Of a stretch of 57,638 nt of DNA, positions 3,532-28,945 are shown piece by piece; positions within the stretch are counted from its first letter, which is position 1, and the number at the start of each line of letters is the position of its first letter. Under the pieces are notes generated by a model. It did no database searches, was not told where the DNA came from, and saw only the letters and a program-made list of their open reading frames with translations. The stretch lies in NCBI GenBank assembly GCA_030535425.1, contig JAUNHQ010000011.1, positions 1 to 57,638 on the forward strand, given 5' to 3'. The DNA comes from Pseudomonadota bacterium. GTDB taxonomy: Bacteria; Pseudomonadota; Gammaproteobacteria; Burkholderiales; Burkholderiaceae_C. The translations under genes and the position numbers were made by a program.

Positions 3532-5259
<1,728 letters not shown>

Positions 5260-5353: not shown

Positions 5354-5428
5354 CATGGCTCGCGCTCACCAGCACACATCTTCCACTCGCACCCAGCCGC
5401 AAGTCACCCACAACTCAATGGTCTTTCC

Positions 5429-5513
5429 CCGTCATTCCCGCGCTGGCGGACATCCAGAGCCCCCAGTACCTGAACAAAGCCACTGGATTCCCGCCTGCGC
5501 GGGAATGACGGTG
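5429..5513. repeat. Pair of inverted dRS3/REP-like palindromes
   Basis: The right unit reads ATTCCC, 8 nt, GGGAAT (about 5488-5507), the pattern of Neisseria dRS3. It is flanked by CTGG on the left and GACGG on the right. The left unit starts CCGTCATTCCCGCG at 5429, is degenerate in its second half (GGACAT instead of GGGAAT) and ends with CCAG. The two units face each other and could form one long hairpin. Similar GTCATTCCCGCG elements are widespread in beta- and gammaproteobacteria. Confidence 0.75.
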
Positions 5514-5605
5514 AGGAATAGCAGGACACTCTGCCCCCGCAGGCAGAGCAAAGCCCAGCGCCCCTGCACAACCGACCTATCGCCATTTGCCGAGCCTGCC
5601 TGTTT

Positions 5606-5660
5606 ACTATGCTTTCAATAGCTTAAAACCCTTTAAAGACGAGCGGTAATACCTTTTCTC
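5606..5660 (+). repeat. Dispersed AT-rich repeat, copy after groEL
   Basis: CTATGCTTTCAATAGCTT followed by AAAACCCTTT and, after a GC-richer spacer, CCTTTTCTC. This is the AGCTTAAAACCCTT subtype. It lies between convergent genes in the same orientation as groEL. Confidence 0.65.
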
Positions 5661-8885: not shown

Positions 8886-9538
8886 CCGGCATCGCGGCAC
8901 CGCTGCTGCAAGCGCGCGCCTGGGTGGGCGAGCGCGATGGCCGGCTGCTGTGGGGGCCGCTGGATGTGTGCCTGCACCCGGGCGATGCGCTGCATGTGCA
9001 AGGGCCCAATGGCTGCGGCAAGACCACACTGCTGCGCACGCTGGCGGGGCTGCGCCCACCGGCGGCGGCGGCGCACACCCAGCTGTGCGCCGATACGTGG
9101 TGGGTGGGTCATGCCAGCGCCCTGGCCGACGAGCTGGACGCCGCGCGCAACCTGGCGCTGCTGCTGGCCGTGGCGGGCGCGCCGCCGCTGCCTGCCGCCC
9201 GCGTGCAGGCGCACCTGGCGGCGCAAGGGGTGCCGCTGGGGCAGCCCGTGCGCCTGCTGTCGGCCGGGCAGCGGCGCAAGCTGGCACTGGCGCCGCTGGG
9301 GCTGGTGGCGCGCGCGCTGTGGCTGCTGGATGAGCCGTTTGACGCGCTGGACGCCGCCGCCTGCGCCGCCCTGGCCGATCTGGCCGCGCAGCACGTGGCG
9401 CGCGGCGGAGCCATTGTGCTGACCAGCCACCAGCCGTTGCCGGCGCTGTTTCCTGCACATCAAATACTGCATTTGAGCTTGCCAGACGCGCGCAAGCAGC
9501 TATTAAATCAAGAGCAATCGAAAGGACTGTCCGCATGA
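8882..9538 (+). CDS. ccmA: CcmA-like heme exporter ABC ATPase
   Basis: A 218-residue ABC ATPase: Walker A GPNGCGKTT near residue 42, signature LSAGQRRKLALA near 125, Walker B LWLLDEPFDALD near 148 and an H-loop LTSHQ near 182. CcmA with CcmB drives release of holo-CcmE in System I cytochrome c maturation. It overlaps the preceding small ORF and ccmB by 4 nt each. The last 20 or so codons coincide with a copy of the dispersed repeat, so the C-terminus may be repeat-derived. No ccmC-ccmI genes follow. Confidence 0.85.
   Translation: MTGIAAPLLQARAWVGERDGRLLWGPLDVCLHPGDALHVQGPNGCGKTTLLRTLAGLRPPAAAAHTQLCADTWWVGHASALADELDAARNLALLLAVAGAPPLPAARVQAHLAAQGVPLGQPVRLLSAGQRRKLALAPLGLVARALWLLDEPFDALDAAACAALADLAAQHVARGGAIVLTSHQPLPALFPAHQILHLSLPDARKQLLNQEQSKGLSA
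9461..9520 (-). repeat. Dispersed repeat copy inside the 3' end of ccmA
   Basis: Read on the minus strand this contains ATTTAATAGCTGCTTGCGC, which matches the groES-groEL copy over 19 consecutive bases. It is antisense to ccmA and encodes residues close to the CcmA C-terminus (LPDARKQLLNQEQS). Confidence 0.8.
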
Positions 9539-13586: not shown

Positions 13587-13636
13587 GCTATCAAACAGAT
13601 AGTTGATAGCGCTTGATGGGAAAGCCCTGCGGGCCG
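13587..13636 (+). repeat. Degenerate dispersed repeat copy after lolA
   Basis: GCTATCAAACAGATAG then TTGATAGCGCTTGA and a weaker right half. It shares the GCTAT/ATAGC core but lacks the terminal T run, so the assignment is tentative. Confidence 0.4.
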
Positions 13637-13684
13637 ATTGGCCATGCGTTTCGGCATCAGCCCTGGCGGTATTACCATGGGGCC

Positions 13685-17690: not shown

Positions 17691-17750
17691 TCAAAAAGGC
17701 CAATCGCGCACATTTGGCAAGGATTTTAAGCTATTTTATTTATAGCTTTT
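17691..17750 (-). repeat. Dispersed AT-rich repeat, copy upstream of gluQ
   Basis: On the minus strand: AGCTATAAATAAAATAGCTT, AAAATCCTT, a spacer with GCGCGA, then TTGGCCTTTTTGA. AGCTTAAAACCCTT subtype, in the same direction as the flanking genes. Confidence 0.75.
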
Positions 17751-20263: not shown

Positions 20264-20291
20264 GGTGCTGCGCTTTCCTGCCATGTGTCAA

Positions 20292-20346
20292 CTATTGTTT
20301 TGATAGCTGCTTGCGCTTGTCTATTAAGCGCAAACGGCCTTTTTGT
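20292..20346 (+). repeat. Dispersed repeat, copy between psd and purT
   Basis: CTATTGTTTTGATAGCTGCTTGCGCTT, then a loop and AAGCGCAAACGGCCTTTTTG. The 8-bp stem TTGCGCTT/AAGCGCAA is perfect, as in the groES-groEL copy. It is antisense to both flanking genes, so its T tract is not positioned to end their transcription. Confidence 0.85.
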
Positions 20347-20357
20347 TCTAGATTTTT

Positions 20358-27667: not shown

Positions 27668-28945
27668 ATGCAAATCTACATGGTCGGCGGCGCCGTGCGC
27701 GACAAGCTGCTGGGCCTGCCCGTGCAAGACCGCGACTGGGTGGTGGTCGGCGCCACCCCCGAAGACATGACCGCCCAAGGCTTCGTGCCCGTGGGCAAAG
27801 ACTTTCCCGTCTTCTTGCACCCGCACACACACGAGGAATACGCCCTGGCCCGCACCGAACGCAAAAGCGGCCAGGGCTACCGGGGCTTCACCGTCTTTGC
27901 CAGCCCCGAGGTGACGCTGGAGCAAGACCTGGCCCGGCGTGATCTCACTATCAATTCCATAGCTGCTTGCGCGGACTGGGAGGGCGCCAGCGCCCCAAAA
28001 GGCCTTGAAAGCCGCCTGATCGACCCCTACGGCGGCCTGCGTGACTTGCGCGCCAAAGTGCTGCGCCACGTCACCGACGCCTTTCGCGAAGACCCCGTGC
28101 GCATCCTGCGCCTGGCGCGCTTTGCCGCGCGCTTTCACGACTTTGCCATTGCCCCCGAAACCCTGGCCCTCATGCGCCAGATGGTCGCCGCAGGCGAGGC
28201 CGACCACCTGGTGCCCGAGCGCGTGTGGCAAGAACTGGCGCGCGGGCTGATGCAGCCCCAACCCGCGCGCATGTTCACCGTGCTGCGCGACTGCGGCGCC
28301 CTGGCCGTGCTGCTGCCTGAGCTGGACCGCCTGTGGGGCGTGCCCCAGCGCGCCGAATACCACCCTGAAATAGACACCGGCACCCACGTGATGATGGTGC
28401 TGAACATGGCCGCGCGGCTGCACGCCCCGCTGCCCGTGCGCTGGGCCTGCCTGATGCACGATCTGGGCAAAGGCACCACCGCCGCCAACGTGCTGCCGCG
28501 CCACCTGGGGCACGAACAGCGCAGTGCAGACCTGGCCCGCGCCGTGGCCCAGCGCCTGCGCGTGCCCGCCGACTGCGCCGAACTGGCCGACGTGGTGGCG
28601 CGCGAGCACGGCCACATCCACCGCAGCGGCCAGCTGCATGCCGCCGCCCTGGTGCGCCTGCTGGAGCGCTGCGACGCCTTCCGCAAACCCGAACGCTTTG
28701 CCCAAGTGCTGCTGGCCTGCGAATGCGACGCGCGCGGCCGCCAGGGCTTTGAAGACAGCACCTACCCCCAGCACCCGCGCCTGCTGGCCGCCCTGGCCGC
28801 CGCGCAGGCCGTGGCCACCGCCCCCGTGGCCCGCGCCGCCCAGGCCCGCGGCGCGCGCGGCGAAGCCATTGGCGCGGCCATTGCCCAGGCGCGCGCGCAA
28901 GCCGTGAACCAGTGGCTGCACGAGCCGCCAGCCACCAGCGGCTAG
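27668..28945 (+). CDS. cca: Multifunctional CCA protein (tRNA nucleotidyltransferase)
   Basis: A 425-residue protein beginning [18 protein letters not shown], with the nucleotidyltransferase acids in [10 protein letters not shown] near residue 21 and [10 protein letters not shown] near 90-99. Between that motif and [10 protein letters not shown] lies an insertion of about 17 residues that coincides with a dispersed repeat copy. A C-terminal HD phosphohydrolase domain has [10 protein letters not shown] near 262. It adds and repairs the 3' CCA of tRNAs. AAGGAG lies 6 nt before the ATG. Length exceeds E. coli Cca (412) by about the size of the insertion. Confidence 0.96.
27948..28006 (+). repeat. 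Dispersed repeat copy inside cca (in frame)
   Basis: CTATCAATTCCATAGCTGCTTGCGC, a GC-rich spacer with GGCGCCAGCGCC, then AAAAGGCCTTG. All three blocks of the family consensus appear in order with normal spacing. The copy is translated into the segment around [16 protein letters not shown], between the conserved [10 protein letters not shown] and IDPYGG motifs. Confidence 0.7.

Follow-up and report, generated by a model that had tools for sequence, protein, structure and literature searches.

How did a stretch resembling a repeat that is dispersed through the genome come to be read in frame within an essential tRNA enzyme? The question is raised by cca (27668..28945, + strand) in the window, that is, the whole stretch of 57,638 nt of DNA analysed here. 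The gene encodes a multifunctional CCA addition/repair protein of 425 aa (NCBIfam NF008137, 631 bits against a cut-off of 451), and several of the nearest named relatives of this protein are from Ottowia. A sequence-only reading had proposed a clean in-frame insertion of 50-60 bp, adding about 17 residues in a tolerated loop, as with the palindromic elements of Rickettsia. Overall, this interpretation is partly supported by the present study.

The repeat family

In cca, a CTAT at 27948-27951 is followed, after 7 nt, by the 14-nt core ATAGCTGCTTGCGC (27959..27972, + strand), all in frame. The core occurs at 130 places in this genome with at most one mismatch, 51 of them exact, and the reversed control finds none. 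At three mismatches in the window alone the search is uninformative (6 found, 6.8 expected). Copies elsewhere in the window, scored with the first of two profiles, are at 3532..3589 (+, 37.7 bits), 9458..9515 (-, 28.2 bits), 20291..20348 (+, 37.7 bits), and, in divergent form, 13587..13644 (+, 33.2 bits). Non-cca copies from several genera share a common architecture of about 57 bp: GCTAT, 7 nt, ATAGCTGC-NN-GCGC, 11 nt, GCGC, 4 nt, GGCC, and a T-rich end. Aligned stretches are 57-59 nt long with a shared spacing of about 57 bp, the candidate arms are of 5 bp and 9 bp, and the consensus is approximately 43% GC by hand count. Because most copies were picked by the core, its conservation among the aligned copies is a selection effect. 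The window has no Rfam match at gathering score, and no recognised description of the family was found in the open-licence PubMed Central literature.

Variant repeats, with an ATAGC-like arm and a T-rich end around another middle (AAAACCCTT...), are apparently sub-families; these are read on the minus strand at 17693, 37672, 44899, 49310, and 51336 and on the plus strand at 5607, 12680, 23073, 30115, and 32363. In another locus (L282), a repeat copy lies inside a long ORF, where its frame-1 translation, TSKIIAAGAMLACACAAFAQ, resembles a signal peptide. No selected reading frame was detected in non-cca copies: frame 1 is free of stops in 18 of 29 copies and in 23 of 30, compared with 15.6 and 20.9 for column-shuffled sequences; this test took core-anchored copies, coding and non-coding together. 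Strand polarity of the copies along the replichore was likewise rejected, the full list from one genome being mixed.

Two non-cca copies fold better than their shuffles (z -2.56 and -2.25), each as a hairpin with a U run after it. Across 67 non-cca copies, three measures for the stems (covariation score, paired cells, and doubly changed cells) are higher than in any of 500 shuffles; two others, pairs with a double change and further pair types, are matched by 499 and 414 of the 500 shuffles, and all of these measures can be inflated by relatedness of the copies. For stem 2, some non-cca measures exceed all shuffles and there is no clear covariation signal in cca. In the cca set, made up of 60 of the 82 distinct blocks, 42 of 500 shuffles were as high for paired cells, 24 for double-change pairs, 14 for double-change cells, 404 for further pair types, and 93 for the score. 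The block in the window folds no better than its shuffles (z 0.22), and a hairpin function inside cca was therefore rejected.

The block in cca and its distribution

The block in cca (27947..28003, + strand) is 57 nt long, encodes residues 94-112, and lines up without gaps with 59 other cca copies. Its left arm, ACTATCAATTCCATAGCT (27947..27964, + strand), encodes the conserved TINSIA; the arm of the repeat coincides with the conserved TIN(A/S)IA codons and is not an addition to them. The CTAT, the 7-nt spacing, the core, and the profile scores given below all bear out an in-frame copy of the repeat. The same does not hold for AAAAGGCCTT (27997..28006, + strand), which the sequence-only reading had counted as part of it. 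The in-register position of the family GGCC is 27992-27995, where cca in the window has GCCC. Since AAAAGGCCTT is about 9 nt late and a relative (L033) has AAAAAGG at the same site, it is probably not the GGCC of the repeat itself.

Two profiles were used to score the block. The first leaves out the cca loop copies and includes some coding copies of other genes; the second is made from 67 core-anchored copies outside cca and is free of these coding copies. With the first profile the block scores 28.6 bits, a value equalled by none of 200 synonymous recodings drawn with the codon usage of cca itself (mean 4.4, maximum 18.8). With the second profile it scores 32.1 bits and the recodings reach 20.3 at most. 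Among positive blocks of repeat-rich genomes, 28 of 30 (first profile) and 27 of 30 (second profile) are above all of their own recodings. The peptide SIAACA permits such a spelling, and the resemblance could in principle be an accident of amino-acid constraint; with no recoding reaching the window score under either profile, and nearly all positive blocks beating theirs, this is almost certainly not the case. The similarity of block and repeat at the DNA level is shown to exceed what the protein requires, and 27947-28003 is confirmed as a DNA-level copy of the approximately 57 bp repeat.

Comparison was made across 250 loci (30 from the genus, 80 named, and 140 from the family), with some genomes present twice. 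At these codons 244 cca sites were parsed. Of these, 95 score at least 8 bits, 82 of the 95 being distinct, and the same site is occupied, with the same codons, in many genera of the Comamonadaceae. The family sample of 150 genomes was reduced to 143, as two have no Cca match (G054, G092) and five with a partial or broken match were left out (G044, G110, G120, G137, G139). Where the core is present in 10 or more copies, 29 of 31 genomes reach a cca score of at least 5 bits, compared with 6 of 112 where it is rarer (Fisher 4e-22, uncorrected for descent), and the tally is identical with both profiles. These classes, like those used below for the genus and for codon identity, are based on the exact core pattern and undercount variant repeats relative to a covariance model. 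When abundance is taken as at least 10 matches to that model, counted from the best 37 scored per genome, the cca copy is present in 31 of 37 genomes versus 4 of 106. Six genomes with at least 10 model matches score below 5 bits at cca (G037, G074, G157, G174, G126, G144), two of which, G126 and G144, keep ATAGC. In G037 (L272), Cca is divergent and without the block, and there is an in-frame repeat at the start of HisD. The reverse is seen in G034, G058, G081, and G090, which have the cca copy with 0-6 model matches.

In the genus of the window, 28 genomes have cca, and at least 8 bits is reached in 14 of 17 that are repeat-rich versus none of 11 that are repeat-poor. Two of the repeat-rich genomes are without the copy (G003, G019), and another (G001; L055/L059) carries the motif and is unscored, having a frameshift just after the block near AAAAA, which may be a sequencing error. 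Among the repeat-poor, partial matches are present in G015 (6.2 bits) and G028 (7.4 bits), and G020 (0.5 bits) keeps the left arm. Outside the family, none of 195 genomes from other families of the order exceeds 7 core matches, and the reversed control is similar; among the genomes sampled, the approximately 57 bp repeat is abundant only in this family. Base composition was rejected as a confounder because the GC3 of cca is equal in carriers (0.861) and non-carriers (0.871).

It may be argued that the repeat and the cca block are both features of a single clade, the association between them being due to common ancestry alone. Both traits do cluster on the tree: in a quick Cca tree from which the block was excluded, the cca trait changes 17 times, compared with 31 when shuffled. 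Supported branches give few independent contrasts, with 6 pairs, 4.6 in the same direction and 0.1 opposite (median p 0.06), or, once the genus is included and presence of the left-arm motif is the trait, 7 pairs, 4.3 the same and 0.5 opposite (median p 0.22). When all branches are used, supported or not, there are 17 disjoint pairs, of which 11 are in the same direction, 2 opposite, and 4 ties (p 0.022). As the supported pairs are too few for significance, the coupling of repeat abundance and cca spelling after phylogenetic control is suggestive, not proven. Common ancestry alone nevertheless seems quite unlikely, given the 14 of 17 versus 0 of 11 within the genus and the differences within clades. 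For example, two genomes of one genus, G042 (35 copies, ACTATCAATTCGATAGC) and G172 (0 copies, ACCATCAACGCCATCGC), have loops of 31 aa with RPDG(T/S)FD and a similar peptide spelt with different codons.

Codon spelling, loop length, and copies in other genes

The spelling of the block differs from that of the rest of the gene. In carriers, ATA is used in 34 of 35 and ACT in 34 of 35, versus 6 of 180 Ile codons and 10 of 464 Thr codons counted in the flanks. As these carriers had been chosen by similarity, the count was redone after sorting the genomes solely by how many copies they contain, giving ATA in 29 of 30 versus 10 of 110 and ACT in 29 of 30 versus 8 of 110. The fraction of identical codons at TIN_IA, counted without G037 and two unparsed genomes with fewer than 10 copies, is 0.842 in repeat-rich genomes of the family (flanks 0.62-0.65) and 0.578 in those with fewer than 10 copies (flanks 0.59-0.64). 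Within the genus, it is 0.805 in the repeat-rich genomes, two of which are without the copy (flanks 0.71-0.72), and 0.451 in the repeat-poor (flanks 0.55-0.57). The Ser/Ala codon halfway along the loop varies freely (0.336), and identity in the right part of the block, at 0.581, is below the level of the flanks. The left arm thus retains its spelling, and the sequence to its right drifts.

In some repeat-poor genomes a similar loop peptide is spelt with GC-rich codons; for example, the AASAGWTGA of G009 is the same peptide as in G004. Two variable bases of the core were also compared between cca and the rest of the genome. The pair in cca is the commonest genome pair in G000 (TT, 51 of 81) and the commonest among the matches listed in G004 (CA, 34 of 50) and G002 (CT, 18 of 50). 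In G001, however, cca has CC and TT is apparently commoner among the matches listed. Concerted evolution through these bases was not accepted, as the genomes are too few.

The addition to the protein is smaller than first proposed. Between TINSIA and DPYGG there are 19 residues in Cca of the window compared with 8 in the outgroup form, which puts the net addition at about 11 residues and not at 17. The outgroup loop was taken from the 28 best-matching loci fetched from 68 genomes in other families of the order; it is 21 aa in 27 of these, the 28th being unparsed. The sequence-only reading would have been refuted by an insertion conserved throughout Burkholderiales Cca with codon choices unlike the repeat. 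Its own criterion does not refute it, since the Burkholderiales read outside the family are without the insertion and carrier codons match the repeat. The loop of carriers is longer than the 21-aa form, and a repeat copy read in frame by this essential gene, absent from relatives, is supported. In the predicted Cca model, confidence is low in this stretch (mean pLDDT 64 for residues 101-110 and 73 for 111-120, compared with 88 overall), which is consistent with the tolerated loop of the sequence-only reading. The clean insertion of 50-60 bp is not upheld, since the net gain varies between lineages and the left arm lies on native codons. Among the site comparisons listed, lengths differ irregularly, with no clean 57-bp gap to mark an empty site and no target duplication. 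At one site (L223:5587-5644), which contains a partial match to the repeat, G091 exceeds many other genomes in length by 150 bp.

Other genes have the repeat in the same reading frame as cca: an SDR oxidoreductase gene near cca in several genera, a UgpC-like ATPase (G148), the N-terminus of HisD (G037), and the C-terminus of Cca. Scores for these from the first profile are inflated, because that profile held six SDR, UgpC-like, HisD, and Cca C-terminal copies. For SDR, 12 of 57 homologues reach at least 8 bits with the first profile; with the second, 5 of 57 reach at least 8 bits and 9 of 57 at least 5 bits. Support from the SDR scores is therefore partly lost with the second profile, and the cca tallies are unchanged. 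The best SDR copies with the second profile, L182 (G165) at 39.4 bits and L154 (G168) at 30.4 bits, are reached by none of 200 recodings. The UgpC-like copy scores 23.9 bits, that of HisD 25.4 bits, and those at the Cca C-terminus 26.2 (L176, G046), 9.0 (L164, G074), and 7.4 bits (L162, G097). SDR carriers come from genomes with fewer than 10 model matches in 4 of 12 cases (first profile) and 1 of 9 (second profile, at least 5 bits). In 52 of 57 SDR homologues the segment is 19 codons long, irrespective of the repeat, and the 18 Cca C-termini that could be parsed all have 42 residues (the search pattern missed most of the 143). As these lengths are constant, the SDR and Cca C-terminal copies replace sequence and do not lengthen it.

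These results bear on the proposal that a palindromic element jumped into the loop once or several times and was then tolerated, unmaintained. The longer loop of carriers, the low-confidence stretch of the model, and the high copy number of the repeat are all in keeping with it. Neutral decay of one old insertion, however, does not predict left-arm codons at 0.81-0.84 in repeat-rich genomes beside a right half that has drifted to 0.56-0.58, and the constant SDR segment, carriers included, is also against it. A plain mobile element is therefore an unlikely explanation.

Alternatively, by analogy with the uptake sequences of Haemophilus, substitutions might build the motif in place wherever coding sequence is compatible, favoured by biased DNA uptake, a binding protein, or a recombination signal. 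The fixed spacing of the motif, its tracking of genome repeat abundance at cca, and the repeat-like DNA without length change in SDR and the Cca C-terminus would all fit. Known DNA uptake sequences are, however, far shorter than this motif of about 57 nt, and the length of the cca loop did change; in-place drive is rather unlikely. Uptake sequences themselves have been suggested to evolve by point mutations and not by insertion (Bakkali 2007, PMC1939737), which favours this alternative. Those of the Pasteurellaceae and Neisseriaceae are described as short motifs, abundant genome-wide and also in coding sequence, with a suggested origin in place (PMC1939737), and are to this extent like the present repeat.

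Known repeats and the proposed history of the block

The Rickettsia palindromic elements (RPE) are described as 105-146 bp long with 12-bp terminal inverted repeats (Delihas 2007, PMC2229807). The likeness proposed by the sequence-only reading holds in part: in that description, RPE are present in many copies, both intergenic and in frame in conserved protein genes, where they are tolerated (PMC2229807). The differences are that the present repeat is about 57 bp with stems of 5 bp and 9 bp, that some coding copies add no length (the cca loop is longer than that of the outgroup, SDR and the Cca C-terminus are not), and that it belongs to environmental genera of the Betaproteobacteria. Since neither its length nor its arms agree with those of RPE, and several coding copies bring no extra residues, the cca repeat is not classed as RPE. 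ERIC, YPAL, and Correia elements are also small repeats reported to be fused in frame to genes (PMC2229807); those are described as approximately 100-200 bp, with terminal repeats and target duplication not shown here.

The beta-proteobacterial repeat elements (BRE) are of about 90 bp, with 69% GC in the Bordetella copies, as described by Hot 2011 (PMC3110155). They likewise occur in Comamonadaceae genomes, with some copies reported wholly inside coding sequence (PMC3110155). The present repeat, at about 57 bp and about 43% GC, is set apart from them by the length and composition so described. The window also has a GC-rich inverted repeat of a different family at 5426-5514, of GTCATTCCCGC type with 32-nt arms that are 88% complementary. 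It may be the published BRE.

MITEs have terminal repeats, a target duplication, and a transposase parent, and no clean element-length difference was found among the site comparisons listed. REP elements are associated with a RAYT-type Y1 transposase. The corresponding domain search (PF01797) gave matches in 112 of 150 genomes, repeat-rich or not, and no match in G122 (62 copies) or G168 (147 copies). A RAYT as the mobiliser was set aside, as PF01797 is not specific to repeat-rich genomes.

On balance, it is rather probable that the block is an old copy, at cca, of a hairpin repeat that is particular to this family and about 57 bp long, which was carried by recombination into a tolerant loop and whose left-arm spelling has been kept mainly where the repeat is abundant. 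Such a repeat would be mobile, now or formerly. Its entry into cca may have been a recombination event: the left arm of the repeat (CTAT-7-ATAGC) would have paired with the similar TIN(A/S)IA codons or taken their place, and the right part would have extended the loop. The left arm would then have kept its spelling only during activity of the repeat system, either through conversion from other copies or through selection by way of a factor that reads the repeat, and would have drifted to normal codons after the system was lost. The kept spelling may be due to conversion, to selection via a motif-reading factor, or to a drive resembling the one suggested for uptake sequences; no enzymatic role is proposed for the loop peptide.

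More tentatively, and with less than even expectation, some system acting in trans, be it recombination, DNA uptake, or a binding protein, could preserve the 57-bp motif in DNA form at hundreds of sites by writing over permissive coding sequence where it stands. In cca and other essential genes, synonymous sites would then be a readout of whether a genome has the system, and after its loss the codons would relax, with the peptide staying as a scar. With the in-frame repeat in cca, coding palindromes are no longer confined to obligate intracellular bacteria but reach a large free-living family, and do so inside an essential tRNA enzyme. The dozens of genomes with and without the repeat, at the same site of the same gene and with a clean codon readout, are a natural experiment in which, for a short bacterial repeat, insertion by mobility can be told apart from drive in place.
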